Part shown: in pieces, positions 501-30,728 of the stretch
How positions within the stretch are numbered: position 1 is the first letter of the stretch
How the letters are laid out: the number at the start of each line of letters is the position of its first letter
From: Anaerolineales bacterium
GTDB lineage: Bacteria; Chloroflexota; Anaerolineae; Anaerolineales; Villigracilaceae
NCBI GenBank assembly: GCA_020060235.1
Contig: JAGVAO010000171.1
Location: 1 to 41,285 of the forward strand
Reading direction: 5' to 3'
Length of the DNA stretch: 41,285 bases
Translations under genes and position numbers: made by a program
The notes under the pieces: model-generated
Seen by the model: the letters and a program-made list of their open reading frames with translations, nothing else
The model's database searches: none
What the model was told of the DNA's origin: nothing

Positions 501-1202
501 TCAGGCTGTTGGCAGGCTTTCCGGGATGGTTGGTGAGTAATCGATTTTCTTCGAAAATTGGGCGATGGTCATGGTGAGCGTGCCCAGCAGCAGAAGAACA
601 GCCCCGGCAAACGTCAGGGTGAAATTGAATGCATCGGCATAATTGACGCCGCCCCAGGTATGAGTCACGCCCATCGTGTATTGAATGGTCAGGGTGAACA
701 GACCGAGCATGATTGCCGCCGCTCCGCCTGCCATCTGGTTGTCTTTGCCCTTGCCGTGTGCAAAATCAACGCCTTGCCAGATGCCGGGGATACGGAAGAG
801 TAGAAAGATGACCAGTGTAAGGACTGTGGCGTAGACAACCATATCCACCGGCATCGATTTGCCGCGCAACATGCGCGAGGTGGCGATGTGAAGTACACCG
901 ATAACCACCCCCACCAACAGGGTGATGAGCGAGTCGCGGTAGGCTTTTGAATCACCCCGAACGAGTTGGATGACCGCCCGAACTCCGGCAATTCCGACCG
1001 CGACCCCGGCCACCACATAAAAGATGTAGAGCCATTGCATTTGCGCCAACGGCCCCATCGAATCTGCCCAGTCAGGATTGAGTGGGGCGAACGCGGCGCA
1101 GCCCGTTCCCACCCCGCCCAGGATGGTGAAGCCGGCGGTGAGCGCCATCAGGACGATGCCTATGAAGCGTAGAAATTTGGCAAAAAAACTGTTGTGAGAC
1201 AT
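501..1202 (-). CDS. Hypothetical multi-pass membrane protein, last gene of the train
   Basis: This 233-residue protein has about six hydrophobic segments. I chose the ATG at 1202, which gives MSHNSFF, because a strong GGAGGAAA ribosome site lies just before it; an upstream in-frame start at 1250 would overlap that site. Segments seen are TM1 near residues 10-30, a loop with the motif TGCAAFAPLNPDWAD, then paired helices with short charged loops, one containing the polar stretch FAHGKGKDNQ. The loop THTWGGVNYADAF is rich in aromatic and polar residues. I recognise no family. It is the final gene before the shared terminator and sits 22 bp after its neighbour, so it is probably co-transcribed with the heme farnesyltransferase and oxidase-like genes. 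It could be an accessory subunit of that complex, but this is only context. Confidence 0.7.
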   Translation of the reverse strand: MSHNSFFAKFLRFIGIVLMALTAGFTILGGVGTGCAAFAPLNPDWADSMGPLAQMQWLYIFYVVAGVAVGIAGVRAVIQLVRGDSKAYRDSLITLLVGVVIGVLHIATSRMLRGKSMPVDMVVYATVLTLVIFLLFRIPGIWQGVDFAHGKGKDNQMAGGAAAIMLGLFTLTIQYTMGVTHTWGGVNYADAFNFTLTFAGAVLLLLGTLTMTIAQFSKKIDYSPTIPESLPTA

Positions 1203-1224
1203 GGTGTTTCCTCCAGAAGAAACA

Positions 1225-1830
1225 TTATCCGAATAAGAATCCGGCCACAAAAGCGGTTGTCATGAACAGCAACAGCCCGGGCAGGATTTTGAAAATCGTC
1301 TCGCGTGACAAGATGGGTTTGCCCGCTTTTAGGAAAGAGAGCAATAAACCACCCAGGCCAATCAGCGCGCCGCCCAGCCCGACCAGAGCAAAGCCGGGAC
1401 GTGTCGTCCCGTTGGTGGTCAGGATGAGGGGAAGTAGGAAAATCGTCAGGCCGGCAACTCCATGCACAAAAGCCAGAGTGAAAACGGGCAATTTGCCGGG
1501 GGTGGGGATTAAACGGGTCAGGGTCACAGCCAGGAATCCGCCAAGGGTGAATATCAGGTATAGGGTGCGGTAGGCTTCGAGATACTGCCAGGCCAGGCCA
1601 AGCGCCAGGCTGAGTGGAATCAAGGTCGAGACGATGACCACGGTCGGGCTATCCAAAATCTCGAAACCCAGAATGATGAGCAGTAACCCGGCCACCAGCA
1701 GGACGCCAAACCCGAGGGTATAGGCAATTACCGGTAGGGTGTCAAGATGGTCAATGCCAATAGCCACCTGCCATGCGGCCAGCAACCCGGTCAGGAGCAA
1801 CAGAATTCGGTCAGAAATGGTCATTTTCAT
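1225..1830 (-). CDS. Hypothetical membrane protein (about 6 helices)
   Basis: The product has 201 residues and is almost entirely hydrophobic, with about six helices, starting MKMTISDRILLLLTGLL and ending in a helix at AGFLFG. The ATG at 1830 begins one base after the stop codon of the CtaB-like gene, so the two are likely translationally coupled. Polar residues are sparse: HLD near residue 28 and a histidine in the helix AFVHGVAGL. No catalytic motif is visible and I recognise no family. Position directly behind a heme farnesyltransferase and within a train holding an oxidase-like protein suggests a role in assembly or anchoring of the same membrane complex, but the sequence itself does not show it. 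Confidence 0.7.
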   Translation of the reverse strand: MKMTISDRILLLLTGLLAAWQVAIGIDHLDTLPVIAYTLGFGVLLVAGLLLIILGFEILDSPTVVIVSTLIPLSLALGLAWQYLEAYRTLYLIFTLGGFLAVTLTRLIPTPGKLPVFTLAFVHGVAGLTIFLLPLILTTNGTTRPGFALVGLGGALIGLGGLLLSFLKAGKPILSRETIFKILPGLLLFMTTAFVAGFLFG

Positions 1831-1831
1831 G

Positions 1832-2701
1832 TCAGACCATCAGGAGCAGCATGGCTGCCAGCATGTATAGCGAAGCATATTTGAACAGGCCGAAATTCAC
1901 CCGTTCTGTTGGTTGAAATACGCTCGCCAGGGCGAGTGCAAGCAATCCGCTCGAAAGTACGAACAGGACGCGTAGATAGCCGATTTCCATTCCAATTCCC
2001 CAGGCAGCCCAGCCCATTGCCAGGGCGGCAAAGATACTTGAAATGGCGATGGTGGCGCGAGTGACGGCAAAACCATAGGTGGAGGGGAAGGTCGGCACTC
2101 CGGCGGCTTTGTAGTCGTTGAAATAGCGCATCGAGAAGGTCAGGATGTGAGTCGGAATCCAAAACAGGATTCCAAGAGCGAGCAGGGCGCCTATCCAGTC
2201 GAGGCTGCCCAGGCCGAGGGCACGGCCAGCCAGGATGGGCATTCCGCCGGAAATACCGCCCCAGATAATGCCCCAGCAGGTGCGACGCTTGAGCCACATC
2301 GAGTAGATGACCACGTCGAAGAACAATCCGGCAAAGATAATCAGACCGTAGAGCGCGTCCATCGCGACTGCCAATGCCACGCCCAGTGTAGCAAGCGCCA
2401 GACCAACCCGCAGGGCTTCGGTTGGGTCGATTGCGCCGGAGGCCAGCGGACGTTTTTGGGTGCGGCACATTTTGGCATCGATGTCACGATCCCACCACAT
2501 ATTGAGGATAGTGCTGCCGCTGATGGCCGCCATCAGGCTGACAAAAAGCCCGACCATCGTCCCCAGGTTGAAAACAGGACAGCGCGCGCTCATGTAACCG
2601 GCCAGGCCTGTCGCAACCAGCAAGCCAGTTTGCAGGGACTTAATCAATGGCCAATACGAGCGGATTTTGGATTTGAGAATTTCGATTTTAGATTGGCTCA
2701 T
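1832..2701 (-). CDS. ctaB: UbiA-family heme O synthase-like prenyltransferase (CtaB/CyoE type)
   Basis: The enzyme family attaches a farnesyl group to protoheme IX, giving heme O, in the cytoplasmic membrane. The 289-residue length is normal. The first Asp-rich motif reads NMWWDRDIDAKM, followed by the CtaB-typical RTQKRPLASG. A second conserved block reads YSMWLKRRTCWG...GGISGGMPILAG, and the helix WIPTHILTFSMRYFNDYK contains the second Asp motif with FP-STYG after it. These features separate it from other UbiA enzymes. The start ATG at 2701 follows AAGGAG. It lies between the SUMF1 lipoprotein and a hypothetical membrane protein in the train. A dedicated heme-modifying enzyme here supports the idea that the oxidase-like gene at 3669-5204 makes a heme-bearing protein. 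The WIPTH variant differs from the usual bacterial WQxPHF. Confidence 0.88.
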   Translation of the reverse strand: MSQSKIEILKSKIRSYWPLIKSLQTGLLVATGLAGYMSARCPVFNLGTMVGLFVSLMAAISGSTILNMWWDRDIDAKMCRTQKRPLASGAIDPTEALRVGLALATLGVALAVAMDALYGLIIFAGLFFDVVIYSMWLKRRTCWGIIWGGISGGMPILAGRALGLGSLDWIGALLALGILFWIPTHILTFSMRYFNDYKAAGVPTFPSTYGFAVTRATIAISSIFAALAMGWAAWGIGMEIGYLRVLFVLSSGLLALALASVFQPTERVNFGLFKYASLYMLAAMLLLMV

Positions 2702-2721
2702 TTCAAAACTCCTTCGAACTG

Positions 2722-3672
2722 CTAACGCGCACAGCGAAATCCAACTTGCGGGCTGTAATGTTGCGGCCCGGCGCTGTTGAATTTCCAGACGCGCAAATCC
2801 ACTTCATATGAGTAAAAACTGCCGCCGCGCATGTGGCGGTAATGCTGTTTGGGATAGTCGTCCCCGGTCCACTGCCAGACGTTGCCGGCCATGTCGTACA
2901 GGCCATAAGGTGAGGCCGAGTCGAGGGTTTCGTAGTTCTCGTATGCCCGTCCATTGAAAAAACCAACCGGGGTGGTATTGCCCAGTTTGCCAAACATTTT
3001 CTCGAACAAGTCGAAGGATGAGTAAAAATTGGCGTTGTTACGCTCGATGTGCTTGCCCCATGGGAAGGGCAGGCCGTAGCCATCGGCCAGTTCGGTGCCG
3101 CGCGCGGCTTTTTCCCATTCGATTTCGGTTGGCAATCGCCAATCGTAAAACTGACAGTAGGCGTTCGCGCCAAACCAGGTCACCATCGTCACCGGGTGAT
3201 TGCTGTATTCGTGGATGGCCTGGAAGGTTTGGCCCTCGAAGATAATGCGCGCGCCTTCGGCCTCGGTCGGGAAGAAGAGTTTGTCGCCCGGCTTTATCTG
3301 CTCTTCGTGCTTGTAGCCGTCATACGGCTCACCGGGATAAAACCCATGCGCGCCAACCTCGACCCAAACCTGCTCGCCGGTTTCCACTTCCACCTCGCCA
3401 ACGCGGATATCGCCCGCCGCCAGGGCTTCGTTCAGGAAACGCGCGTACTGCTCATTGGTAACTGTTGTGACCATGATTTCGTAGTCGTAGTCTACTTCGG
3501 TCATGTGGTCATGCTGACCGTAGGGAAAGGCCCCCGCCGGGACTTTTGCCCAAGATTCAGGGTCAACACCGGTATCCACATAAGGCGGTGTAATTGCGCC
3601 CACATTCGGCGCTTCTGCACAGGCTGTCAGCAAGATGGTTAAAAGTGCCAGCAAGATAAGTGTGCGTTTCAT
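2722..3672 (-). CDS. SUMF1/FGE-sulfatase-domain lipoprotein without FGE active-site cysteines
   Basis: The 316-residue protein starts with a lipoprotein signal (MKRTLILLALLTILLTAC, modified Cys at residue 18). The rest is a formylglycine-generating-enzyme fold: WAKVPAGAFPYGQ, TTVTNEQYARFLN, HPVTMVTWFGANAYCQFYDWRLPTEIEWEKAARG, YGLYDMAGNVWQWTGDDY, the MRGGSF block and the closing GFRCAR. Genuine FGE has a cysteine pair in the segment between RGGSF and GFRCA; here that segment (YSYEVDLRVWKFNSAGPQHYSP) holds none, so it is probably a structural or ligand-binding relative and not an oxidase of cysteines. The start overlaps the oxidase-like gene stop (ATGA) after GAGGAGG, showing tight coupling. 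Extracytoplasmic lipid anchoring beside that membrane protein suggests an external subunit; this is inference. Confidence 0.85.
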   Translation of the reverse strand: MKRTLILLALLTILLTACAEAPNVGAITPPYVDTGVDPESWAKVPAGAFPYGQHDHMTEVDYDYEIMVTTVTNEQYARFLNEALAAGDIRVGEVEVETGEQVWVEVGAHGFYPGEPYDGYKHEEQIKPGDKLFFPTEAEGARIIFEGQTFQAIHEYSNHPVTMVTWFGANAYCQFYDWRLPTEIEWEKAARGTELADGYGLPFPWGKHIERNNANFYSSFDLFEKMFGKLGNTTPVGFFNGRAYENYETLDSASPYGLYDMAGNVWQWTGDDYPKQHYRHMRGGSFYSYEVDLRVWKFNSAGPQHYSPQVGFRCAR

Positions 3673-5204
3673 TTGGACACCTCCTCGATGGTTTTTTGCA
3701 GTTCCTCCATTTTTTGTTTCTGCTCCCGTAATTCATCCTCGGCGGCTTTCTTGATTTCGGCTCTATGTTCTGTTTGCCAGTTGCCTTTTGCCTTCAGAAG
3801 GTCAATTAACCGCCAGACCATGAATATCGCCAGCACGAACAGCACGGTTGCCAGGCCGATGTCTGTCAGCAGCATGGTCCAGTTGACGATATTCTGCTGC
3901 TCTATTTCGCTTACAAAGAGACGTTTCATCGAAAAAACTGTTACCGACCCAAAGGCCAGGTTCGACATGATGATAACCAGCCATCCAAACCACTGGCGCG
4001 CCTTGCCCTTCAACCCGGAACGGTCGGCAAAGTAGAACAGGATGATGGTGGCAATCAGGCTGGCGAGGATGTGCCAATGCCCGGTCAGGGTGATGCGCTC
4101 TTCGCGGTGCGGCCAGACGCGGAAAATCTCGGTCAGCTTAACGGCCATAAAGATGCCCACGCCGCTGACGGTGAAATTCATGAAGACCATCTGCCAGCCG
4201 GGGCCAAACTTGAGCGGGTCACGTAACAGGGCTTGGATTTTCTGCCAGAAAGTGGGTTTTTCGATTCCGACAGTGCCTTCCTTGATAAGCATATCCCAGG
4301 AGTAGATGACAAACAGGAGCGCGGCCAGCATGACACCCACCGAGCCGACATAAATGGTCGTATGCGCCCACTCAACCCAGACGACTGAAAGCGCGCCAAA
4401 CGTGATGACGATTGTGCCGACGATCATCAACGGCATGGCGATTTTGTGCAAGATTCCCTTGAATTTGAGCCAGCGTCCAACAACCAGCGTGATGGCAACC
4501 GCCACCAGGGTCAGCATGATGTGCAGGTGGCCAATAATGGCCTTTTCAAGGTAGGTTTTGAACGGGTTGCGAATCAGGTCTTCAGCCAGGAAGGTTTCGT
4601 GTCCGTTGCCCCAGTAGGAGCCGGTAACCGCCCCAAAGGAGGCCGAGAGCAGGGTTGCAACGGCCATCACGAAAAAGGCGGCGCGTTCCAGATCCACACC
4701 GCCTTTGGTGTGAGCATAGGGCGAATCACCGGGAAGCAGATACTCTTTTTTCCAGGGCCAGAGCGCCGCAGAGAGCAAAATCCCTGCAAAAAAGACCAGC
4801 GATTGCCCCAGCAGGAACAAGCCGTGAAAAATGAAGTTTTGTCCCCAGTAGGCAAAAGCCATGCCAAAGATGACTGCTGTCAGGTAGCCAGCGGTGATGG
4901 TGGCATTAATGATGGTTTGCTCGTGGCGCTTCATCGGGATGATTTCGGTAATGATATACACCTCGACGGCAACAATGGTCATGGCGATGGTATGGTAGAG
5001 CATGATGATGCGGCCTTCACGCTCGGCCTGCACCAACTGCATGCCAAACAACCGCACGACAACATCCCGAATTCCCCATTCCACCATTGGGCCGGAAAGC
5101 ATGCCCCACAGCGCGGTCATGACCGAGACCACTGCAATGGCGACCAGGGTCAATCCGCGTGTGGAGCGGAATAGATAGTCGAAACGTTCTCTGATGAATT
5201 GCAT
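3669..5204 (-). CDS. Heme-copper-oxidase-like multi-histidine membrane protein (divergent)
   Basis: This 511-residue protein has about 12 hydrophobic helices and a charged coiled-coil C-terminus (about residues 470-511, rich in E, K and Q). Histidines lie inside or at ends of helices in patterns reminiscent of heme-copper oxidase/NorB subunit I: YHT at H71, FHG at H127, GHLH at H226/H228, EWAH at H281 and GHWH at H376/H378. The canonical HPEVY and HH copper motifs are absent, so electron-acceptor chemistry cannot be assigned. Start ATG 5204 follows AAGGAG. Neighbours are a CtaB-like enzyme, a polyferredoxin of the NapH/NosR kind and a coupled SUMF1 lipoprotein, all consistent with a respiratory membrane complex. 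Alternatives are a b-type cytochrome or a transporter. Similarity to subunit I is a judgement from His spacing and topology and needs a profile search. Confidence 0.6.
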   Translation of the reverse strand: MQFIRERFDYLFRSTRGLTLVAIAVVSVMTALWGMLSGPMVEWGIRDVVVRLFGMQLVQAEREGRIIMLYHTIAMTIVAVEVYIITEIIPMKRHEQTIINATITAGYLTAVIFGMAFAYWGQNFIFHGLFLLGQSLVFFAGILLSAALWPWKKEYLLPGDSPYAHTKGGVDLERAAFFVMAVATLLSASFGAVTGSYWGNGHETFLAEDLIRNPFKTYLEKAIIGHLHIMLTLVAVAITLVVGRWLKFKGILHKIAMPLMIVGTIVITFGALSVVWVEWAHTTIYVGSVGVMLAALLFVIYSWDMLIKEGTVGIEKPTFWQKIQALLRDPLKFGPGWQMVFMNFTVSGVGIFMAVKLTEIFRVWPHREERITLTGHWHILASLIATIILFYFADRSGLKGKARQWFGWLVIIMSNLAFGSVTVFSMKRLFVSEIEQQNIVNWTMLLTDIGLATVLFVLAIFMVWRLIDLLKAKGNWQTEHRAEIKKAAEDELREQKQKMEELQKTIEEVSK

Positions 5205-5249
5205 GGGCGAAGCTCCTTATCAAAAAGGTGAAAATCTTCTGGTTATGTG

Positions 5250-6056
5250 TTAACTTGTCATCCACTTGCGGGTCGAGGGAAGCAGCAGGTAAATAAACAA
5301 ACCTGTGCTTATCAACGGGGCAGGCAGGAACATTGAAAAACGCCCAACTTCAGTGACATTATGAATTCCCAGTGGATAACCGCCAATCATCGACATGGAA
5401 GCTGCAAACAGTCCAACCGGGATGGTCCAGGATGCTCGCTTAAAGGCGGCAAAAATAAAGACTGCCCAGGCCGCCGCCCCCCACCAGTTGACTTGTTGCA
5501 GAATTACATAAGCGCCATTCCAAAAAGTATTAGGGCTTTGCGCAAAGACTTCCGGCATTTGAAAAGTGGTCTGGAATTTGGAAATCGGAGCCACCCCGTC
5601 AATGAATGTCAGGACATAAGCCAGCCCGGCGACGAAAGTTAGTGTGATGATTTTCTTCTCGACACCGCCGACAAAAAGCATCCCGAACCAGACAACAGCG
5701 CCGAGCAGGAAAACCCAAAGTGTCGGGGTCGGCAGGCCGCTATCGGCGGCAGGAATCATCGGGAAAAATCCGGCCAGAAGCAGGATCGTACCTGCCACTG
5801 CGCCCCAGAACCAGGCCCAATTCTGCTTGTTCAGGAAACCCCACAGTACAGGTACGCACAGCGCCCCGGCTGCTGTTCCCATCCAGCCGAGAACGGCGTA
5901 GACAATGCGTACTGTATTGCTCTCTTCCCACTCGCCAGCCGCGAAATGGGTATGAATAACCGTGTTATAGGTCTGGGCCAGGAAATACAGGCATAGTAAA
6001 CCTGCAAGAATGCCGAGTACTGCCAGAGTAGCCCCAAGAGTGGTGTTGTTTTTCAT
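5250..6056 (-). CDS. Hypothetical multi-pass membrane protein, paralogue family member 3
   Basis: The 268-residue protein has seven or eight hydrophobic helices. The ATG at 6056 follows GAAAGGAGTT. It shows the same order of landmarks as the proteins at 7155-8006 and 9693-10559: a first helix and extracellular loop, a helix pair around a W-rich turn, a PMIPAADSGLP-like loop after a helix, a helix with VEKKIITLTFVAGL, and a long loop before the last three helices. Identity by eye is low, so paralogy is weaker than for the other two. No cofactor motif is evident beyond scattered histidines (IHTHF near residue 33, GIHN near residue 232). It lies between the polyferredoxin and the oxidase-like gene, suggesting it is a membrane subunit of the same machinery. 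I do not recognise a named family. Confidence 0.7.
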   Translation of the reverse strand: MKNNTTLGATLAVLGILAGLLCLYFLAQTYNTVIHTHFAAGEWEESNTVRIVYAVLGWMGTAAGALCVPVLWGFLNKQNWAWFWGAVAGTILLLAGFFPMIPAADSGLPTPTLWVFLLGAVVWFGMLFVGGVEKKIITLTFVAGLAYVLTFIDGVAPISKFQTTFQMPEVFAQSPNTFWNGAYVILQQVNWWGAAAWAVFIFAAFKRASWTIPVGLFAASMSMIGGYPLGIHNVTEVGRFSMFLPAPLISTGLFIYLLLPSTRKWMTS

Positions 6057-6074
6057 TTTGAACTCCTTTCTAAT

Positions 6075-6911
6075 TTATAGAACTCTTAATTCAAGCGATT
6101 CGTCCCGTGCGCAGGTTTCAAGGCATTCCAAACAGCGAATGCACTCCGCATCGCGCAGGTTTTCGGGCACAGATTGAATGCCCATCGAGCATTCGACATC
6201 ACAGCGTCCGCAGTTGTTACAGTGGCTGGTGTTGTTCACAATCCGTACTGGCGAAATCTTGTTGAAAATTGCCAGTGTTGCTCCCAGCGGACAAAGGTAC
6301 TTGCACCAGGAGCGCTCCACCAGGAAGGATGTGACCAGGAAAACCCCAAGCACGCTCCATAACAGGCCAGTTTCCAGTCTGAAACTGAACACCGCTCGCA
6401 CGGGGCAAATATCGTGCAAAGGCGGGTAAACCGCAAAGGCGGACGCGGCCAGAACCAGGCTTAGAATGAGATACTTTGCCCATCGTAAAGGGCGGTCAGC
6501 CCAAAGGGGGATGGCGATGGGCAAACGCCCCGCAGCCGGTTTGCCTCGAATATGGCGTTTTTCTCCGCCCAGGCGGCGCGCCAGTTTCGCCAGCCCCTCC
6601 TGCACCGCCCCCAGTGGACACATCCACCCGCAGAAGGCACGGCCCGCTACGATGGAAACGCCCAGCACGCCGCTCATCACAGCAAAATTAAGCAGGTTGG
6701 TGGTCTTAAGCGTCTGCCCACGCGCCAGGTAGACCCAGAGCGTCTCAATGGCACCAAATGGACAAAAGGCGTCAAAGGAACCACCGCTACCTGCCTCGCC
6801 TGGAAGCAGGTGGCGAATACCGATAAGAAAGGTTCCAATGACAGAAAACCATAGCATCCCATGGCGGATTCCTGTTAATTTTTTTAAGCCCTGGCGGTCC
6901 ATGCTGCTCAT
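6075..6911 (-). CDS. NapH/NosR/CcoG-type 4Fe-4S membrane polyferredoxin
   Basis: The 278-residue protein combines about five membrane helices with cysteine motifs. Two CxxxCP sites, AFCGWMCPLG and WCKYLCPLG, sit at helix ends as in NapH and NosR, and a further FCPFGAIETLW is near the N-terminus. The C-terminus holds two ferredoxin clusters, CNNCGRCDVECSMGI and CIRCLECLETC. This family passes electrons from the quinol pool or cytoplasm toward periplasmic or membrane reductases. I chose the ATG at 6911 because it overlaps the stop of the upstream 58-residue gene (ATGA); a TTG at 6929 is the alternative. The DICPVRAVFSF segment after helix 3 offers one more cysteine. It is the clearest electron-transfer component of the train. 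Partner protein and direction of flow are not shown by the sequence. Confidence 0.88.
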   Translation of the reverse strand: MSSMDRQGLKKLTGIRHGMLWFSVIGTFLIGIRHLLPGEAGSGGSFDAFCPFGAIETLWVYLARGQTLKTTNLLNFAVMSGVLGVSIVAGRAFCGWMCPLGAVQEGLAKLARRLGGEKRHIRGKPAAGRLPIAIPLWADRPLRWAKYLILSLVLAASAFAVYPPLHDICPVRAVFSFRLETGLLWSVLGVFLVTSFLVERSWCKYLCPLGATLAIFNKISPVRIVNNTSHCNNCGRCDVECSMGIQSVPENLRDAECIRCLECLETCARDESLELRVL

Positions 6912-7084
6912 AAACTTTTTGCTCTCCAAATCACATTGACTAATTCCAGATTTGAAGGAACCAACTCCAGCGCTTCTTTGGTCGAGCCATGTTCAGGTCG
7001 GAAACCGAGCGCCAGCGCAACCAACATGCCAATGGCAAATGCAGCGATGATGATGACAGGATAGTAATACGGGTCAATTTTCAT
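6908..7084 (-). CDS. Small single-pass membrane protein (58 residues)
   Basis: Starting at the ATG at 7084, the product reads MKIDPYYYPVIIIAAFAIG and continues as a single helix, then a soluble tail ending VIWRAKSL. Longer upstream starts would run through the intercistronic hairpin at 7100-7137 and are unlikely. The stop overlaps the polyferredoxin start by four bases, so the two are translationally coupled, as expected for a small subunit or assembly peptide of an iron-sulfur membrane protein. I know no family for it. Its size and coupling are the main evidence that it is real. Confidence 0.6.
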   Translation of the reverse strand: MKIDPYYYPVIIIAAFAIGMLVALALGFRPEHGSTKEALELVPSNLELVNVIWRAKSL

Positions 7085-7099
7085 GAAATTCAGGCTTGG

Positions 7100-7137
7100 G
7101 CAGGCGCAGCATACCAATCCTGGCATACTGCGCCTGC
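7100..7137 (-). promoter_or_regulatory. Intercistronic hairpin
   Basis: Perfect 10-bp inverted arms (7100-7109 and 7128-7137) can form a GC-rich hairpin in the mRNA between the 283-residue membrane protein and the small membrane protein. No U-run follows on the minus strand, so it fits RNA processing or stabilisation better than termination. Confidence 0.6.
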
Positions 7138-7154
7138 AAGCAAGGAGAATGCGC

Positions 7155-8006
7155 TTATTCCGGCTCTTTACCCAAATCAACGAGTTTGAACTTTGGGAAA
7201 AAGAGTGCAAACATCAAGCCGCCTGAAAGCAGGGAGCCGTATAGATAATCCAGAGAGTCAGACTGGGCGATAAATGTACGGATGAACTGGGTTGGAACAT
7301 CAATTGCAAAGATGGATGCGGCGGCAATCAGTGCCAGCCACCAGCCAATCCGCGCACCCGCCGCCAGTTTGTAGATGGCAATGAACAGCAGGATGACACA
7401 AATCCACTGCACCGGCGCAGACCAGGCCAGTACCCACCAATCGAAACCGGCGTACAGTGGTTTTTCCGGGCGGGTGAGCAGCATACGCAGGTTGCCGGTG
7501 CCAATAGTGAAAGCATGGGTGGTCAACATCCCCGCGAAGGTTAGGGCAACGAAATGTGCCCATTTCTGCATTTTGTCCACGTTGCGTAGGAAAATGATGC
7601 TCCAGAAAAAGGTTAGTCCGACCATTGAGATTGCCATTGGGATTGGAAAACCATCCACAAACGAGACATACGGCAGGAACATGAACATGCCGCCAGCGGA
7701 AGGAAATGCGGCAGCCAGCAGGCTGGCCGGGTATGCCCATTCGCGGCCTTCATAGATGGGTTTCGCGAACAACAACAGCATCACGCCGCCAATAAAAATC
7801 AGGGCGCGGTAGAAGGGATAGGCAAACGAAAATATCAGGATGCCGCTGGCGTAAGCCGGCTTCTCTGCTGAAACAACCAGCAGCGCGCTGATGACCCGTT
7901 CCAGCGAGGTTTGAATCAGCAGCGGGGCCACGATGGTCATGAACAGACCGACGACGACAGCCAGGATTGCCAAGATAAGCCGATTGGTTTGAGATGTGTT
8001 TTTCAT
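7155..8006 (-). CDS. Hypothetical 7-8 helix membrane protein, paralogue of the 9693-10559 protein
   Basis: The ATG at 8006 (MKNTSQTN) follows AAAGGAGAAGG, giving 283 residues; a longer start at 8042 would bury that ribosome site. The protein has seven or eight helices. It aligns by eye with the product of 9693-10559 along most of its length: both have a loop ending in a Px-Y-x-G-R/E-W motif, a GGM/Y-FM/MI-helix, a central FTIGTGNLRML versus FANGHAAFRIL block, LTRPEKPLY versus FGHPARPLF, and near the end FIRTFIAQSDSLDYLYG versus HYVRHATNDYLYG. Such conserved polar blocks in membrane helices suggest a shared ligand or partner site. It lies between two mRNA hairpins, which may set its level apart from its neighbours. 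The family is unknown to me. Confidence 0.72.
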   Translation of the reverse strand: MKNTSQTNRLILAILAVVVGLFMTIVAPLLIQTSLERVISALLVVSAEKPAYASGILIFSFAYPFYRALIFIGGVMLLLFAKPIYEGREWAYPASLLAAAFPSAGGMFMFLPYVSFVDGFPIPMAISMVGLTFFWSIIFLRNVDKMQKWAHFVALTFAGMLTTHAFTIGTGNLRMLLTRPEKPLYAGFDWWVLAWSAPVQWICVILLFIAIYKLAAGARIGWWLALIAAASIFAIDVPTQFIRTFIAQSDSLDYLYGSLLSGGLMFALFFPKFKLVDLGKEPE

Positions 8007-8040
8007 AACCTTCTCCTTTGTGGGTCTGTTATCCTGCTGC

Positions 8041-8086
8041 ACCAGCGGGGCGAGTGGCTTGCTTGCGGGTCACCCGCCCCGCTGGT
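8041..8086 (-). promoter_or_regulatory. Intercistronic hairpin with alternative inner stem
   Basis: A perfect 12-bp GC-rich stem (8041-8052 with 8075-8086) spans a 22-nt loop. A second stem (8065-8070 with 8072-8077) overlaps its right arm, so the two compete. There is no U-run. It lies directly behind the FmdE-like lipoprotein gene and could protect its mRNA end, giving more of it than of downstream genes. Confidence 0.65.
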
Positions 8087-8103
8087 ACAAACCGTTGCGG
8101 CGT

Positions 8104-9663
8104 TTACTTCTCGTACACGGTCACAGTGAAGAAACCGTCCAGGTCGGCTTTCTCCAGGACGAATATGGCCCTGTCGTTCCAGTACTTCTGGTAATCAGCC
8201 GCCTCTTCGGGGGTGGCTGTGCCTGCTGCCATTTTCTTGCCCATCTCGACACGTCCGGGGGTAGGAATTGGCAGGATGATGACCAGGTTGAACTTGACGC
8301 CCACTTTCTGGCCGGTATCCAGGCGGGTGAATATCCATTCCCGCATTGGAGGCAGTTGTCCCGTCGGCTCTGCTGCGTAGACCATCTTGTTTTGCCGCAC
8401 GAAGAGGTTGTCCACTGTCCCGAACTCGGAGCCGATGAAGCCTGTGTGCGGGGATGCGCCGGTGATATAGGTAATAATCTCGCCGAACACACCGACAAAC
8501 CATTCATCCTCTGCGCCAGGGGCTTCCACTGCAATCTGACCACGCACCGGGATTTCTCCGTCAGGATACAGCACTTCGAGTGCCTTCCTGGTTATGGTCC
8601 ATGCGCCGGTGGTCGCGCCACAGGAATGTCCAGCCAATTTGACGGCTTCCTCATAGTAGTAAGGGACAGGTCCAGCAGTCTGCCCGAATATACCGAAGTA
8701 CGGTTCCATCATCATGATTGGCGGCACCTCCGCGATATATGACTGCTCCCAGGCAAAGTCTTCAGGGGATGCGGGTACAGTATTTTCTACGATTGCATCG
8801 GCAGTTGTGGGCGTGCCTTGCTGGTAAACATTTACATTGAAAAAGCCATCCAGGGTATCGGCATTTTCGAATACGAATTTTGCCCTGGCATTCCAGTATT
8901 CGTAGTAATCAGCCGCCTCTTCAGGGGTGGCTGTGCCAGCCGCCATTTTCTTGCCCATTTCCTGACGTTCGGGGGTTGCAATCGGGGTGATAACTGCCAG
9001 GTTGAAATTGACACCAACTTTTGCACCGGTATCCAGGCGGGTAAAGACCCATTCCATCTGTGGGGGAGGGGTCCCGGATGGTTCATCTTTGTAGACCATC
9101 TTGTTCTGACGCACAAAGATGCTGTCTGTCTGTCCGAATTCCGCGCCGATGAAACCTGTCTTGGGGGATGCGCCAGTGACAAAGGTAATCACCTCGCCAA
9201 ACACGCCGACAAACCACTCGTCCTCAGCGCCAGGGGCCTCCACGGCGATCTGTCCACGAACGGGAACTTCTCCATCGGGGTAAAGCACTTCGAGCGCCTT
9301 GCGGGCAATCGTCCAGGCACCTGCGGTTGCGCCACAGGAATGTCCTGCCAATTTGACAGCGTTTTCATAGGTGTAGGGAACTGCCACCTGCGACTGCCCA
9401 AATATCTGAAAATATGGGTCGCTCATCAGGATGGGCGGGACTTGCGTGATGTAATCCTGTGTCCACAGCCCGGCAGGCTTCTCCTCAACCTCGGGGATGG
9501 GTGACGCCTCTTGCTCGACTTCAACCGGTGCCACCGTTGGAACCTCGACAGGCTCCACGGGCTTCGGCTCCGGTGCGCTGGTCGGCGTGGATGCGGGTGC
9601 GCACGCCCCCAATATCAAAGCGGCAATAATCAACATCGCAAGAACAGGGAAAAACCGTTTCAT
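8104..9663 (-). CDS. Exported lipoprotein with two tandem FmdE-like domains
   Basis: The 519-residue protein starts MKRFFPVLAMLIIAALILGAC, a lipoprotein signal with the modified Cys at residue 21, then a Pro/Thr/Glu-rich linker to about residue 65. Two near-identical halves follow (about 69-265 and 310-519). Each carries AVKLAGHSCGAT (Cys at about 110 and 348), ALEVLYPDGE, PVRGQIAVEAPGAEDEW, a VITGAS-type turn with a GFIG segment, and a tail with EEAADYYEYWN or its twin. The GHxCG motif followed by a small-residue helix resembles FmdE, a domain associated with formylmethanofuran dehydrogenase that usually binds zinc in the cytoplasm. Here it is duplicated and lipid-anchored outside the membrane, so the usual role does not fit. 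ATG 9663 follows AAAAGGAGAAAA. Assignment to FmdE is from motif memory. Confidence 0.75.
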   Translation of the reverse strand: MKRFFPVLAMLIIAALILGACAPASTPTSAPEPKPVEPVEVPTVAPVEVEQEASPIPEVEEKPAGLWTQDYITQVPPILMSDPYFQIFGQSQVAVPYTYENAVKLAGHSCGATAGAWTIARKALEVLYPDGEVPVRGQIAVEAPGAEDEWFVGVFGEVITFVTGASPKTGFIGAEFGQTDSIFVRQNKMVYKDEPSGTPPPQMEWVFTRLDTGAKVGVNFNLAVITPIATPERQEMGKKMAAGTATPEEAADYYEYWNARAKFVFENADTLDGFFNVNVYQQGTPTTADAIVENTVPASPEDFAWEQSYIAEVPPIMMMEPYFGIFGQTAGPVPYYYEEAVKLAGHSCGATTGAWTITRKALEVLYPDGEIPVRGQIAVEAPGAEDEWFVGVFGEIITYITGASPHTGFIGSEFGTVDNLFVRQNKMVYAAEPTGQLPPMREWIFTRLDTGQKVGVKFNLVIILPIPTPGRVEMGKKMAAGTATPEEAADYQKYWNDRAIFVLEKADLDGFFTVTVYEK

Positions 9664-9692
9664 ATTCTTTTCTCCTTTTGTGCGCTTGCTCT

Positions 9693-10559
9693 TTATTTTG
9701 TTTCAATCAATCGCTGTTTGAAGAAGGGGATAACCAGCATAACCACGATGCTCAAGCCCATCAGTGCGCCATACAAGTAGTCATTGGTCGCATGGCGAAC
9801 ATAGTGCGTTGCTCCGCTGGCAACCAGCGTCACCAGGCCGCCAATCATGCCGGCATACCATCCCGACATTTTCTTCTCGCCAAGCAGATAGATGGCGGCA
9901 ATGCACAAACCCATACCTACCCAGAGCGCCAGCCATCCAAAGTAAGTAATGGCGATACCTTCGGCAAACAACGGGCGGGCCGGGTGACCAAACAGGATGC
10001 GGAATGCGGCGTGTCCATTGGCAAAATTCTCCGCCGCGGTGACGCCCAGCATCAAGAACACGAGGAAATCGACAATTTTCTGGTTGCGTTCCACGTTTTC
10101 AGCCAGGAGCAATGCGAAGTAGGGAATCAGGCCAATGGTCATGATGATGACTGCTGGCGGGAAACCGCCCTGGGTGCTGCCGACGAAGTTCATCCAAGGA
10201 ACAATCATGTATGCGCCGCCGATGGAGGGCACAGCCAAGCATAGGAGCGCCAGACCGCGCGTCCAGCGTTCGCCGCGATATAGCGGCAGGGCAATCACCA
10301 GCAAGGCAAGTCCGGCAACCACCGACATTGTGCCCCAAAACGGGAAGAAGAAACTGACCAGCCAAACCGTATAAGCCAGCAAGGGTGCCTGGGGATTTCC
10401 CTCGGTGGTGAACTTTTCAATCCGCACCTGCTGGGCTTTGACAATTGGATTGCTCATGTCGAAGCTGATAAAGGGCACTAGTACAATCATCAAAATTGCG
10501 GCTAGCACTATCAGGGAAACAACTGCGAGGCGGACCTGGCGTGAAGTGGAAAGCAACAT
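9693..10559 (-). CDS. Hypothetical 7-8 helix membrane protein, first gene of the train
   Basis: I chose the ATG at 10559 (MLLSTSRQVR), which follows AAGGAGG; the longer start at 10595 would enclose that site. The 288-residue product has seven or eight helices with an N-terminal extracytoplasmic region of about 50 residues (FISFDMSNPIVKAQQ...). Its loops LYRGERWTRG, PSIGGAYMIVPWMNFVG, AENVERNQKIVDF, HPARPLFAEG and THYVRHATNDYLYG have counterparts in the protein at 7155-8006. It is the promoter-proximal gene and reads away from the Crp/Fnr gene. Upstream of it is 232 bp of shared regulatory DNA. Function is unknown; as the first gene with paralogues further down, it may form a hetero-oligomeric membrane core with them. 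Confidence 0.72.
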   Translation of the reverse strand: MLLSTSRQVRLAVVSLIVLAAILMIVLVPFISFDMSNPIVKAQQVRIEKFTTEGNPQAPLLAYTVWLVSFFFPFWGTMSVVAGLALLVIALPLYRGERWTRGLALLCLAVPSIGGAYMIVPWMNFVGSTQGGFPPAVIIMTIGLIPYFALLLAENVERNQKIVDFLVFLMLGVTAAENFANGHAAFRILFGHPARPLFAEGIAITYFGWLALWVGMGLCIAAIYLLGEKKMSGWYAGMIGGLVTLVASGATHYVRHATNDYLYGALMGLSIVVMLVIPFFKQRLIETK

Positions 10560-10687: not shown

Positions 10688-10709
10688 GTCTTTGCCTTAA
10701 GGCAAAGAC
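10688..10709. promoter_or_regulatory. Perfect 22-bp palindrome, FNR-like operator
   Basis: Two 9-bp arms (GTCTTTGCC and its complement) flank TTAA. The core TTGCC-N4-GGCAA has the exact spacing of an FNR box (TTGAT-N4-ATCAA). Its centre is about 42 bp upstream of the predicted start of the Crp/Fnr transcript, the class II activator position, and about 140 bp from the start codon of the divergent train. Confidence 0.82.
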
Positions 10710-10735: not shown

Positions 10736-10791
10736 TCGGCAGAGAGGAAATTTTGCTGTTCGATGTGCGAACTGGCAAATCAATCATAACC

Positions 10792-11475
10792 ATGTACACA
10801 CTCGAATCATTACTTGCCCGTCACCCGGCTTTTGCTTTGTTGGAAGAATCTGAACAGGCGTCTTTATGTTCGATTGCCAATACCAAGCATTATCGAAAAG
10901 GGGAATCTATTGTCGAACAAGGGGATAATTGGCCCTATTTGTTTTTAATCGGGGATGGCAAAATTAATGCGACCAAAATGTCCATAGAGGGGCGAAATCT
11001 GATTGTTACCGGGCTGGAGAGTGGAGATGTGTTCTGGGGACTGGCTTTTTTTCTGGATGACATGCCCATGCCCGTCTCCTTGGAGGCTGTCAGCGCGTCA
11101 CACATTTATCTCTGGGAACGAAGCGAGATTTTGCCTTTCCTGCTGAAACACGGTCAGCTTACCTGGGAATTATCCCGTTTAATGGTGCGGCGCATGGCCC
11201 AGGCGAGCGAAATTATCGAAACTCTCGCTTTCCAGCCGGTTGCCGGACGACTGGCTCGTTTCCTTGTGGAACTTTCCCCCGATGATAATGAACCGATTGC
11301 CCGCAGCCTCACCTTAGATGAAATGGCTGCGCGCGTTGGCTCAACGCGTGAAGTTGTCTGCCGCTTTTTGCAGCGTTTTGCGAACAACGGATTGATTGAT
11401 ATTACCCGTACTGAGTTTGTTATCAATAATCCTGAAGCATTAAAGGCCCTGGCCCAGCAAAGCAAAGGCGGATAA
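10792..11475 (+). CDS. Crp/Fnr-family transcriptional regulator
   Basis: The 227-residue protein has an N-terminal cyclic-nucleotide-binding-type beta barrel (YRKGESIVEQGDNWPYLFLIGDGKINATKM..., then SGDVFWGLAFFLDDMPMPVSLEAVS), a long dimer helix (LTWELSRLMVRRMAQASEIIETLA) and a winged-helix domain with the recognition region TLDEMAARVGSTREVVCRFLQRF. The four-cysteine N-terminal set of oxygen-sensing FNR is missing; cysteines occur only near residue 35 and in the recognition helix, so it may sense a small molecule or redox state differently. ATG 10792 fits the family start; a TTG at 10753 behind GAGGAAA would add 13 residues. It is divergent from the membrane train and likely controls it and itself through the 22-bp palindrome. 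Effector is unknown. Confidence 0.9.
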   Translation: MYTLESLLARHPAFALLEESEQASLCSIANTKHYRKGESIVEQGDNWPYLFLIGDGKINATKMSIEGRNLIVTGLESGDVFWGLAFFLDDMPMPVSLEAVSASHIYLWERSEILPFLLKHGQLTWELSRLMVRRMAQASEIIETLAFQPVAGRLARFLVELSPDDNEPIARSLTLDEMAARVGSTREVVCRFLQRFANNGLIDITRTEFVINNPEALKALAQQSKGG

Positions 11476-11720: not shown

Positions 11721-11760
11721 AGATAGGGGCGTGGAAATCATTGGAGCATCAGGGCAAACC

Positions 11761-14700
11761 ATGACAACAGGCAAACTTTCGGCAGAGAAAAAACTGCGCA
11801 GTGCGGATTTGTTTATCGTCGATAACAGCGATGAAGAGTGGAAGGCAGCGCGATACCTACATGATTGGTGCGATATTGCGCGCGCGTTTGACATCGCCAC
11901 CGGTTATTTCGAAATTGGAGCGCTGCTCAAGCTGGATGGGCAGTGGCAAAAACTGGATAAGATTCGTATTCTGATGGGGGATGAAGTCAGCCTGAGAACC
12001 AGGCAGGCATTTGAAAAAGCCCTGGGTGGGCTGGCCCAAAAGCTAGATAACAGCATTGAAGTTGAAAAAGAGAAAAATGATTTCCTGAGCGGCGTTCCGG
12101 CGATTGTCGAAGCGTTGCACTCTCGGAAAATTGAGTGCAAGGTCTACAAAGAACGCAAGTTCCACGCCAAAGCTTATATCACCCACGCCAAAATGGACGT
12201 GATTGGCCCGACAGCCCTGGTCGGCTCGAGCAATTTCACCTACCCCGGCCTGACAGATAATGTCGAGTTGAACGTCCGTATTCGTCATGATGTCGACGAA
12301 CTCCAGGACTGGTATGAGCGCTACTGGCAGGTGGCCGAAGATGTTACCCCGGACATCCTGAAAACCATCGAAAGGCACACGCAGGAATACACTCCGTTCG
12401 AAGTGTACACACGAGCAATGGCGGCTTATTTTGAAAGCCATGAAATTTCGGTTGGGGAGTGGGAACGTGGCGAATCTGTCATCTACCCAATCTTGAGCCA
12501 ATACCAGAAGGAAGGGTATCACCGCCTGATGGAGATTGCGCGGCGGTATCGCGGAGCTCTGCTGTGCGATGGCGTGGGATTGGGGAAAACCTTCATTGGG
12601 TTGATGGTGATTGACCGCCTGTTGCATGAACGCAAGAAAATCGCCTTGTTCGTGCCAAAGGCAGCGCGCGAAGATGTGTGGGAAAAGAAATTGCAAACCT
12701 ACCTGCCTAGGGCAACGGGCGAATACAGCAATTTGCGCATTTACAACCACACAGATATCCTGCGCGGCGGGAATTTCGAACGGGTGATGGACGAAATCAA
12801 GGATGAAGCAGACGCAATCGTTGTGGATGAGGCCCATCATTTTCGAAACATCAGTTCGCGGCGGGCACGCAAGTTCTACGAGATTACAGAAGGTAAGGAA
12901 CTCTTCCTGCTTACCGCCACACCCATCAACAACAGCCTGTACGACCTGATGCATCTGATGGAGTATTTTGCCCGACGAGACCAGCCTGATTATTTCAGCG
13001 AAGCGCCGCTGGGTATTCATTCATTGCGAGGACATTTTCGAAAGATGGAGGACGCGCTCGATTCGCTTTCGGGTAGAAAATCGGGCAGTGACGTTCTGCT
13101 TGATCCGGGCGAAGCAGAGGAAGTCCTTTCCAAAGATGACCTTTTCCAGGCGCTCGTTGTTCAGCGTAGTCGCTCTTATGTAAAGACCAGCCTGAAGCGG
13201 GAAGGAAACGGCAATGCAGTCTTGTTCCCAACGCGCAAAGACCCGCAGGTGGCGCCCTACTCGCTCAAGAGAACCTATGGTGACTTGCTGGATAAGTTAA
13301 GGGAAGGCTTCAACAAGGAGAACCCGCTGGTCAAACTGGCGATCTATTTTCCCTTGAACTACCCCGCCAGCGTAAATAAAGAGGAAGATACGTTCGAATT
13401 TGGGCGACAGAAACAGGTTGTGGGCTTGATTCGCACACTGCTGTTAAAAAGGTTCGAGAGTTCGGCGGTATCGTTCCGCGCATCGTGTGAAGACTTGTTG
13501 CTGAAACTGCTTGCCTTCGTTCAGATCCACAATCCCAAAACTGCCGAGCGTTGGCAGGCACAACATGCCGAATTGATGCAAAGCATCGGCGAGAGTGTCC
13601 GCAGCCGTGGCATGACCGAAATGGACGAAGAGGACTTTGACGAAGATGTGCTGACCGAAGAGCTCAAAACGCGAATTAAAAAACTGGACGAACGCGAATA
13701 TGATGTCACATCCATTGTGCTGGATACCCTGCTGGACATGGACCAACTGGCAAGTTTTCTGGAGGAGTTGAAGAACTTTGACCCAGCACAGGATGACAAA
13801 CTAAAGAAACTCATCCACCTGCTGAAAACAGATGAGACGCTTAGCCAGCACAAGGTTTTGATATTTACAGAATACCAGACCACCGCCCGTTATCTGGCAA
13901 GGCAATTGCAGGCAGCGGGTATTGGCCCACTGATACAGGTGGATAGCCAGCGCGCAAATGCCAGCCATGCGATATTGGCGTTTGCGCCGTATTACAACGA
14001 TTCGAACAGTGCTGAATTGAAAGCGCGGGGTATCGCCGAGGCGCGGATTTTGGTATCGACCGATGTGCTGGCAGAAGGATTAAACCTGCAAGACGCCACC
14101 TGCATCATCAATTACGACCTTCATTGGAATCCCGTGCGGCTTATGCAGAGGATCGGTCGTGTGGACCGCCGTCTCGATCCGAGGGTTGAAGCGCAAATTG
14201 TCGCCGACCATCCAGAAACGAGGGAGATTCGCGGGGTTGCCCACTTGTGGAACTTCCTGCCGCCCGATGAACTGAACGACATCCTCAGCCTGTATGAACG
14301 TGTGACCAACAAGGCCCTGCGTATCTCGAAGACCTTCGGTATCGAGGGCAGAAAATTCTTGACGCCCAATGACGATTATGATGCCCTGAAGGAATTTAAC
14401 CGCCAGTACGAAGGCACCACCACCTCCAGCGAGGAGATGTATCTGGCGTATCAAAAACTGGCGCAGGAGTATCCTGCCATGATGGAGCGTGCCCACACCC
14501 TGCCGCGCCGACTGTTCAGTGGCAAGGCAAACCTGACGCCCGAAGCCAAAGCTGTGTTTTTCTGTTACCGCCTGCCCGCTAAGAACGCTGAAGGCATATG
14601 GGACGAGGAAGCCGCGTTCACTCGCTGGTACTTGTATGAGGTCGGAACGGAGACCATCTTTGAAGACGCGACCCGCATCATGGCGTTCGTGGAATGCACC

Positions 14701-14853
14701 CCCCAAACGCCACGCAGGATGAGTATTGAACGCAAATCATTGAGCGAGATCCGCCGCCGCATGGATAAGCACATCGCCAATACCTACATGAAGAAGGTGC
14801 AGGCTGTGCAAGGCGTGGAACCGGTTTTACTGGCATGGATGGAGTTAAACTGA
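11761..14853 (+). CDS. PLD-nuclease/SNF2-helicase subunit of a restriction-modification system
   Basis: From ATG 11761 the product has 1030 residues; a GTG at 11731 would add ten. An N-terminal phospholipase-D-like domain (about 20-215) carries KFHAKAYI (H135, K137) and GSSNFT (G155-N158), although the Asp expected after the HxK is a His. The SNF2/DEAD-like motor follows: Walker A DGVGLGKT (K276), VVDEAHH (D356), LLTATPINN, then VLIFTEYQTTARYL, LVSTDVLAEGLNL and QRIGRVDRR. The family translocates on duplex DNA with ATP and the PLD domain would cut it. The stop is one base from the start of the methyltransferase gene, so they form an operon. The pair resembles type ISP enzymes split in two, or DrmD/DrmMI of DISARM without the other genes. 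The motor is intact, so activity is plausible. Confidence 0.88.
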   Translation: MTTGKLSAEKKLRSADLFIVDNSDEEWKAARYLHDWCDIARAFDIATGYFEIGALLKLDGQWQKLDKIRILMGDEVSLRTRQAFEKALGGLAQKLDNSIEVEKEKNDFLSGVPAIVEALHSRKIECKVYKERKFHAKAYITHAKMDVIGPTALVGSSNFTYPGLTDNVELNVRIRHDVDELQDWYERYWQVAEDVTPDILKTIERHTQEYTPFEVYTRAMAAYFESHEISVGEWERGESVIYPILSQYQKEGYHRLMEIARRYRGALLCDGVGLGKTFIGLMVIDRLLHERKKIALFVPKAAREDVWEKKLQTYLPRATGEYSNLRIYNHTDILRGGNFERVMDEIKDEADAIVVDEAHHFRNISSRRARKFYEITEGKELFLLTATPINNSLYDLMHLMEYFARRDQPDYFSEAPLGIHSLRGHFRKMEDALDSLSGRKSGSDVLLDPGEAEEVLSKDDLFQALVVQRSRSYVKTSLKREGNGNAVLFPTRKDPQVAPYSLKRTYGDLLDKLREGFNKENPLVKLAIYFPLNYPASVNKEEDTFEFGRQKQVVGLIRTLLLKRFESSAVSFRASCEDLLLKLLAFVQIHNPKTAERWQAQHAELMQSIGESVRSRGMTEMDEEDFDEDVLTEELKTRIKKLDEREYDVTSIVLDTLLDMDQLASFLEELKNFDPAQDDKLKKLIHLLKTDETLSQHKVLIFTEYQTTARYLARQLQAAGIGPLIQVDSQRANASHAILAFAPYYNDSNSAELKARGIAEARILVSTDVLAEGLNLQDATCIINYDLHWNPVRLMQRIGRVDRRLDPRVEAQIVADHPETREIRGVAHLWNFLPPDELNDILSLYERVTNKALRISKTFGIEGRKFLTPNDDYDALKEFNRQYEGTTTSSEEMYLAYQKLAQEYPAMMERAHTLPRRLFSGKANLTPEAKAVFFCYRLPAKNAEGIWDEEAAFTRWYLYEVGTETIFEDATRIMAFVECTPQTPRRMSIERKSLSEIRRRMDKHIANTYMKKVQAVQGVEPVLLAWMELN

Positions 14854-14854
14854 T

Positions 14855-17800: not shown

Positions 17801-18262
17801 AATCCCACCTACCGCAGTCGCTACGCCGAATTCCTGAAAATAGATTTCCCCCGTCTGCCGCTCACCAGCAACGTGGCGTTGTTCCGTCAACTGTGCGTTC
17901 TGGGGAAGGAGTTGGTTGCTTTACATCTTTTGGAAGCCGAAGGTCAAAAGCCGAAGGTCAAGTTCTCTGCTGTCCGTGGTCAATCGTCTGTTGTCGCCAA
18001 AGGCTATCCCAAGTATGACGATGGCAAAGTGTATATCAACACTGAGGCGCACTTTGCAGGCGTCCCTGCGGAAGTGTGGGAATTCCACATCGGCGGGTAT
18101 CAAGTCTGCGAGAAATGGCTGAAAGACCGTCGCGGGCGCGAACTCTCGGCGGAGGATATTGTTCATTATCAAAAGATTGTCGTCTCCTTGGGAGAAACCA
18201 TCCGCTTGATGGGGCTGGTGGATGAGGCGATCGAGTCCGCTGGCGGGTGGCCGGTGAGATGA
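14855..18262 (+). CDS. N6-adenine DNA methyltransferase with C-terminal target-recognition region
   Basis: The 1135-residue protein has a long N-terminal region, then a catalytic domain with motif I DPATGTATFL (D443) and motif IV NPPY (575-578), as in Eco57I/type ISP/DrmMI enzymes that methylate adenine with S-adenosylmethionine. The stretch VQRGVFYTPKPVVSYIVRGV ahead of motif I is typical. Beyond about residue 585 lies the likely target-recognition region and a conserved GC-rich end with GPEDVFHYMYAVFHNPTYR and FHIGGYQVCEKWLKDR. Base composition drops sharply between about 16600 and 17760 and rises again afterwards, consistent with exchange of the recognition segment. It pairs with the upstream PLD-helicase. 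Its last 42 bases recur downstream (22634-22675) and in part at 18786-18812. Its stop overlaps the next start (ATGA). Confidence 0.9.
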   Translation: MDHSEIRKLQKLTSFEALVDYLRDELDWPIEDTDQTDRLAFEYSPAELGLDEKSAVKIHEIRQLRPLVDGQPWGIFWVDFEPKKLPISVMRRILNGLVTKQRNRNASQATWHMDDLLFISAVGDEKTEKREINFAHFHQDAGDLPTLRVLGWDGADTVLKIDYVAKTLKEKLLWPQNPKDVQGWRETWAEAFKHKPGHVIRTADALAARLAELAGKIRAAAVTIMEHESERGRLRKLHKAFQTALIHDLTQADFADTYAQTITYGLLTAAISRTDMLGGEGGTALVAENITDMVPVTNPFLKEMLGTFLHAGGRSGNGRNGIDFDELGIQDVVELLRSNETDLPAILRDFNNRAEGEDPVIRFYEDFLEAYDKELKVQRGVFYTPKPVVSYIVRGVHELLQSEFGLEDGLAATVTWGEMHARNAEVKIPKGVAASSFFVMILDPATGTATFLVEVIDVIYKTMVAKWKTKGLSAAQIQAAWNEYVPTSLLPRLYGYELMMAPYAIAHMKIGLKLFETGYRFASDQRANIYLTNALDEPSQLAQGSAASLFEALGHESQAVNDVKRGAHFTVVIGNPPYANFGMMNKGEWILGLLGEYKQGLDEKKINLDDDFIKFVRLAQWTIDKSNTGIIGFITNNSYIDGLTHRAMRGSLLNSFGEIHVLDLHGSTKRQSAQLKDENVFDIQQGVAICFMAKSKDKKNEGKVFHAELFDTRERKYETLLANSLASFHWIEVQDVFHESCLGKFLFFAPKAMDNIDEYCMNWSLKDIFSTYQNGIKTDRDELFFDMDASELEKRMKTFYSKKGLEKSFAEKYRVENSSSYDLISRRSKTEFEKENIRKCLYRPFDEQYLYYAAGLTSRPAWDVMQHMLAGKNLSLLSCRQQAETGFQHVFCTDSINECCAVSLRTREITSAFPLYIYPSGMSKQQSLFTMSEGDRRPNFTDKFSKALSKTIKLSMLADGTGDLHKTFGPEDVFHYMYAVFHNPTYRSRYAEFLKIDFPRLPLTSNVALFRQLCVLGKELVALHLLEAEGQKPKVKFSAVRGQSSVVAKGYPKYDDGKVYINTEAHFAGVPAEVWEFHIGGYQVCEKWLKDRRGRELSAEDIVHYQKIVVSLGETIRLMGLVDEAIESAGGWPVR
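18221..18262 (+). repeat. Methyltransferase 3' tail, copy A of a scattered repeat
   Basis: These last 42 bases of the methyltransferase gene encode DEAIESAGGWPVR and the stop. The same tail recurs as copy B (part of 18735-18812) and copy C (22634-22675). Copy A is the intact, in-gene version. Confidence 0.8.
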
Positions 18263-26712: not shown

Positions 26713-26737
26713 CGTTTTTCCAAATCTTGTGCGAACT

Positions 26738-26823: not shown

Positions 26824-26825
26824 TC

Positions 26826-28064: not shown

Positions 28065-28113
28065 ACTTCACCCCCTGAAAAACCTTCGCCACAATAAAAG
28101 CGGTCTAAAACAG

Positions 28114-28200: not shown

Positions 28201-28215
28201 TCATCAGTCTCTCCT

Positions 28216-30617: not shown

Positions 30618-30618
30618 T

Positions 30619-30710: not shown

Positions 30711-30728
30711 AAAACACCTCGTGATTTT

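Follow-up and report, generated by a model that had tools for sequence, protein, structure and literature searches.

A gene cluster carried by an Anaerolineales bacterium encodes a histidine-rich membrane protein, G, with a predicted heme-copper oxidoreductase (HCO) fold, and with moderate confidence we propose that it most likely reduces nitric oxide (NO) to N2O in the membrane as a divergent HCO-fold catalytic subunit. Together with the same partner genes, G occurs across about eight bacterial phyla (the binning of metagenome-assembled genomes may misplace some of them), and it probably represents an overlooked route for NO removal in anaerobes. The best reading of this protein is that of a divergent HCO lineage that departs from each of the named families tested in residues by which these are defined, and hence has been filed in none of them. 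We found no description of the lineage in the literature searched, which did not take in Murali 2024 on NOR diversity.

The window, i.e., the whole analyzed stretch of 41,285 nucleotides, contains eleven minus-strand frames at positions 501–10559, lettered A to K in transcription order. A sequence-only reading had described this region as a train of eleven genes, and the ORF listing agrees with it; since each frame is matched at high identity in other genomes by tblastn, we consider all of them to be real genes. Neighboring frames are closely packed, G and H overlapping by 4 bp, D and E also overlapping, and I and J being separated by 1 bp, while the start of K is an ATG inside a longer frame, 501–1250. 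The genes of the train and the adjacent regulatory features are as follows.

A, 9693–10559, minus strand: membrane protein that opens the train, paralog of C
B, 8104–9663, minus strand: duplicated FmdE-like lipoprotein, optional passenger
C, 7155–8009, minus strand: membrane protein, paralog of A
D, 6908–7084, minus strand: single-span membrane protein of 58 aa that travels with E
E, 6075–6929, minus strand: NapH-like (NapH/NosR-like) membrane polyferredoxin, optional passenger
F, 5250–6056, minus strand: membrane protein without recognized family, frequent partner, 37 members
G, 3669–5204, minus strand: His-rich 12-TM protein of 511 aa with a predicted HCO fold, putative catalytic subunit
H, 2722–3672, minus strand: SUMF1/FGE-domain lipoprotein, core partner
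I, 1832–2701, minus strand: CtaB-type heme O synthase paralog, core partner
J, 1225–1830, minus strand: 7-TM protein with one invariant histidine (H123)
K, 501–1205, minus strand: membrane protein with invariant C36 and H182, 43 members
Crp/Fnr-family regulator, 10753–11475, plus strand: divergent from A (HTH_Crp_2, 1.7e-15; cNMP_binding, 5.2e-13)
Perfect palindrome TTTGCCTTAAGGCAAA, 10691–10706, no strand assigned: situated in the crp–A interval, putatively the site at which the neighboring Crp-family regulator acts as on its operator

In family searches, E matched the NCBIfam NapH model (TIGR02163, 1.5e-26) below its curated cut-off (93.4 vs 213 bits) and shares with NapH an architecture of two Fer4_5 domains. 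I scores above the cut-off for heme O synthase (TIGR01473, 211.8 vs 210.3 bits), H has an FGE/SUMF1 domain (PF03781, 2.2e-36) behind a lipobox, and B contains two repeats of about 210 aa each, its match to FmdE (PF02663, 0.0036) lying below the gathering score (17.8 vs 22.9 bits). No family matches were obtained in Pfam/NCBIfam searches for A, C, D, F, J and K; A and C belong to the same protein cluster, and tblastn matches of D in loci L003, L005, L006, L008, L013, L024 and L079 adjoin E or lie close to it. The fold of J (AlphaFold2 model, pLDDT 96.5) is uninformative as a clue to kinship, matching only generic 7-TM bundles at Z 13, and HCOs are not among its listed structural matches. As noted by the sequence-only reading, no NapA, NosZ, NirS or NrfA is encoded in the train according to Pfam/NCBIfam searches of its genes. 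A search of a plasmid collection returned no match.

The assignment of G to a known family by sequence was ruled out, searches of Pfam and NCBIfam as well as phmmer and hmmsearch searches of PDB sequences all being empty, and PF00115 was absent from the families listed for 76 members of the G family. The probable kinship of G emerges from its predicted structure. An AlphaFold2 model built from a 76-row alignment (pLDDT 87.3, pTM 0.89), the helix list of which was read as twelve membrane helices, was aligned by VIA-align with CcoN of the P. aeruginosa cbb3 oxidase (8smr_E) at Z 23.2 with an rmsd of 4.1 over 405 residues and with cNOR (4xyd_A) at Z 20.5, and the best 50 PDB chains listed for this model were all HCO subunits I. 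Foldseek likewise ranked oxidases first, at weak E-values (best 0.0095). On this predicted model G has the 12-TM fold of HCO subunit I, and a full-length HCO fold is well supported. Profile–profile comparisons by hhalign with alignments of A-type oxidases, NorB, COX1-neighbor proteins, other HCOs and NnrS-like proteins were not significant, one of the alignments being shifted by a repeat, and homology between G and the HCOs therefore rests on the predicted fold and the ligand pattern.

This pattern is strictly conserved. Residues H71, H127, H226, H228, H281, H376, H378 and M230 are invariant in 76 diverse homologs of G, and the seven histidines persist even in homologs of 33% identity. The HCO-spaced series H71-H226-H281-H376-H378 corresponds to H61-H203-H254/255-H345-H347 of a NorB used for comparison, with H71, H378 and H376 at the spacing of the low-spin (TM2, TM10) and high-spin (TM10) heme histidines of HCOs. 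The GHxH motif is present in both TM6 and TM10 of G, the former helix carrying H226 and H228 within the motif HLHIM. At TM7-8, a single histidine (A280-H281-x282, with a variable position 282) is found and the canonical His-His pair is absent; AH281xxIxxG aligns by eye with AHHMFxxG of the A-type oxidases, the second histidine being replaced. The invariant H127 has no canonical HCO counterpart. From these residues we infer that G retains the sites of the low-spin heme, the high-spin heme and the second metal, the last of them in a rearranged form. On the basis of position and spacing, the proposed ligands are H71 in TM2 and H378 in TM10 for the low-spin heme and H376 in TM10 for the high-spin heme, and a second metal, iron or copper, may be bound by H226 and/or H228 (TM6) and H281 at the start of TM8; heme O for one of these hemes would be supplied by I.

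CcoN of cbb3 and NorB of cNOR share with G the 12-TM fold (Z 20–23), histidines in TM2, TM6 and TM7-8 and an HxH in TM10 at matching spacing, whereas identity to G is 8–13%, G gives no PF00115 match, its one TM7-8 histidine replaces the His-His pair, and H228 and H127 are extra. G further differs from cNOR by the absence of the TM6 glutamate (HLHIM is found instead of HxxxE) and of a NorC gene, no NorC-like gene being recognized among the train genes by family searches, and from cbb3 by the absence of the TM7 tyrosine and of CcoO/P genes. Known O2-reducing HCOs have a His-Tyr cofactor. In the 76 homologs of G, the i+4 position of TM6 is the invariant Met230 and no conserved tyrosine occurs anywhere in TM6-7, which argues against O2 reduction. 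That G is a terminal oxidase for trace O2, i.e., an atypical oxygen reductase that uses heme O, is the least probable of the alternatives considered here: oxygen reductases are the usual clients of CtaB, cbb3 is the best structural match of G, and micro-oxic growth fits Crp/Fnr-type control, but besides the lacking tyrosine no CtaA, CuA or cytochrome c subunit was recognized in the cluster by family searches, and the genomic context is one of nitrogen-oxide metabolism. Altered active-site residues within an HCO fold are also known from the non-canonical NORs (eNOR, sNOR, gNOR, nNOR and bNOR; PMC8756737, PMC12569097). An eNOR-like protein from a related Chloroflexota genome (L182) is recovered by PF00115, whereas G is not, and G has HLHIM in TM6; among these NORs, the sequence comparison covered the eNOR-like L182.

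The composition of the cluster was compared among 54 loci that extend 5 kb or more to either side of G, and gene order was counted in 109 loci. Within the former set, the partners of G are H (52 loci), I (47), J (39) and K (36), followed by Crp (31), F (23), A/C (18), E (8) and B (2). H is the next gene after G in 90 of the 109 loci, and H and then I follow in 77; J is often double, one copy preceding G and another following I. A CtaB gene is retained even beside G homologs of 33–36% identity (L119–L121). The conserved core of the cluster is G-H-I, usually plus J and K, and the polyferredoxin E and FmdE-like B, because of their presence in only 8 and 2 of the 54 loci, respectively, are optional passengers outside it. 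The sequence-only reading had taken all eleven genes for one complex and expected the polyferredoxin, the FmdE-like lipoprotein and the oxidase-like gene to be conserved together; synteny rules out a single eleven-gene complex (E 8/54, B 2/54, F 23/54, A/C 18/54) and does not support this association, but what did survive is its oxidase-like heme membrane protein with a CtaB of its own, kept as a cluster in the form of G-H-I. The G-H pair resembles nirK-nirV in that a conserved accessory gene stands beside the gene of an N-oxide reductase, a putative one in the case of G. NirV is SUMF1-like, and H differs from it in accompanying a protein of predicted HCO fold and in carrying a lipobox. No activity has been assigned to NirV (PMC10356946). 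H may serve as an accessory lipoprotein for assembly or in the periplasm, and J and K, as well as F and A/C in those loci that have them, as membrane partners engaged in quinol oxidation or in proton/NO traffic.

In locus L013 (420–5769), a reductive dehalogenase gene (TIGR02486, 5.9e-60) has F, D, E and one unduplicated FmdE-like B as its neighbors, suggesting that the E/B module is an electron-feeding unit for different reductases.

A genome scan yielded 84 encoded G relatives, 80 of which were kept (54–85% identical). The titles of the respective metagenome-assembled genomes, some of which may be misplaced by binning, name Chloroflexota, Bacteroidota, Chlorobiota, Calditrichota, KSB1, Neomarinimicrobiota, Spirochaetales, Geobacteraceae/Desulfobulbaceae and 'Deltaproteobacteria'. 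Within its own class, G was found in 56 of 298 genomes, 40 of the 56 falling into the main clade. In the phylogenetic tree, most non-Chloroflexota rows group together, a Spirochaetota pair lies inside a Chloroflexota clade, and G homologs of 33–45% identity from the same class form a separate deep clade. A second and shorter cluster of the host genome, crp-G-H-I-K, lies on contig C5 (L124, G000:C5, 1817–6851); one in-frame TAA breaks its G frame, as a result either of decay of this paralog or of faulty assembly. NrfA (G000:C44) and NirK (G000:C60) are encoded elsewhere in the same genome, where a PF00115 search recovered one A-type oxidase and one weak fragment; this oxidase has its own CtaB at G000:C142, separate from I. 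Distant homologs of G (about 37% identical) in loci L115, L117 and L118 adjoin a canonical COX1, with the GVWSHHLL His pair in TM7-8 and HAH in TM10, and possibly form a two-HCO operon. In L176 and L177, loci from other Chloroflexota, large open frames of 724–749 aa contain several tandem PF00115-like stretches with HAH/HAQ motifs.

Control by a Crp/Fnr-family regulator, as suggested by the sequence-only reading, is consistent with the divergent gene beside the cluster, with the presence of a Crp-family gene near G in 31 of the 54 loci and with the operators, and the operon would be switched on by this regulator. The form of the TTTGCCTTAAGGCAAA palindrome recurs at the same place in relatives, and TTTGC-N6-GCAAA has 21 copies in all loci, including 14 beside cluster genes. 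An unbiased palindrome count over the upstream regions of J, G, A/C and F placed TGTGA-N6-TCACA first (35 of 263 regions), and TTGAC-N4-GTCAA was also prominent. Overall, the former motif occurs 47 times in 1.71 Mb, 39 of them beside cluster genes, and the latter has 16 exact copies in all loci, 11 of them beside cluster genes, some of the loci being near-duplicates in both counts; eight control palindromes have 0–4 occurrences each over the same loci. As TGTGA-N6-TCACA coincides with the CRP consensus of E. coli, it is no proof of NO sensing. Both motifs are published consensus forms of HcpR (PMC1274295). The operator of the window itself differs from both HcpR-type motifs, being a related palindrome only, and CRP-like TGTGA sites with at most 2 mismatches are not above chance in the window (11 found vs 15 expected).

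Genes linked to NO adjoin a minority of the G loci. For example, the KSB1 locus L044 has the order nrfA-nrfH-crp-ferredoxin-ygbA-J-G-H-I; in E. coli, ygbA responds to NO as a target of NsrR (PMC5320621), a ferredoxin-like gene is a main HcpR target, and the predicted HcpR regulons of Geobacter and Desulfuromonas include nrfHA (PMC1274295). NrfA is also encoded near G in further Chloroflexota lineages (Promineifilum-type loci, L166 and L167), Rrf2 genes, related to NsrR and not identified as such, lie near the cluster in L034 and L061, and an NnrS-like gene stands beside it in L013, L016 and L007. Co-occurrence was assessed in the 298 genomes of the class, comparing 40 genomes with main-clade G and the other 258 by p values that ignore shared ancestry. 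On this basis NrfA is more frequent with G (23/40 vs 57/258, p 1e-5), as is NirK (12/40 vs 26/258, p 0.0014), and no link was found for NosZ (p 0.41). The genomic context and the operators of the cluster point to NO. The earlier description of the substrate as undescribed was accordingly too open, although the accompanying claim that no named family is matched by sequence stands. It should be noted that 16 of the 40 genomes with G have neither NrfA nor NirK. This subset, together with the interchangeable look of the feeding modules, as at the reductive dehalogenase gene of L013, would fit a G with a different substrate, a nitrogen or sulfur compound, as part of a quinone-linked complex of several uses that receives its electrons from polyferredoxin E; we regard this as rather improbable, given that E is present in only 8 of the 54 loci and that NO is favored by operators and neighbors.

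NnrS is a heme membrane protein of NO stress, but G has no NnrS match in Pfam. G could nevertheless be an NnrS-like HCO-fold heme protein conferring NO tolerance by binding or protection rather than by respiratory turnover to N2O. The NnrS-like genes beside the cluster, the stress-regulon neighbors YgbA and Rrf2 and a metal site without the second histidine of the pair speak for such a role, whereas the dedicated CtaB paralog and the several membrane proteins conserved with G are more suggestive of a redox enzyme with multiple subunits and both heme-type histidine sets are strictly retained, so we consider it unlikely, if somewhat less so than turnover of another substrate. Under the preferred assignment of G as an NO reductase, the NO removed would be a product of nitrite ammonification or denitrification. 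A bolder and distinctly more tentative proposal is that G represents a deep HCO lineage beyond sequence recognition, marked by an HxH in TM6, a single TM7-8 histidine and heme O, that is a major NO consumer among anaerobes of many phyla, both nitrite ammonifiers and fermenters, and possibly has new chemistry (e.g., NO dismutation) compared with the named NORs.

Genome surveys that address NO reduction and N2O emission use HMMs built on the known HCO families (e.g., PMC12569097), and they would probably miss the G family, found in 56 of the 298 genomes of its class and in other phyla, because it gives no PF00115 signal. Should G prove to reduce NO, the numbers of N2O producers and of NO detoxifiers among ammonifiers would have to be revised, and its natural variant of the binuclear site would help to ask what the His-His pair, the tyrosine and the glutamate do.

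Two further gene groups were observed in the window. At 11731–18262, on the plus strand, a gene for an HKD/PLD-plus-Snf2 helicase (PADLOC C3a139, 2.2e-53) is followed by one for a type IIG/ISP restriction-methyltransferase (PADLOC, 1.1e-188), and this pair, which adjoins the crp gene, is a probable anti-phage restriction system. On the minus strand, the block at 24137–34787 encodes primase/Toprim-like, AAA_25, phage integrase, actin-like ALP and FtsK-type ATPase proteins and has the appearance of a plasmid or conjugative element that has become integrated.
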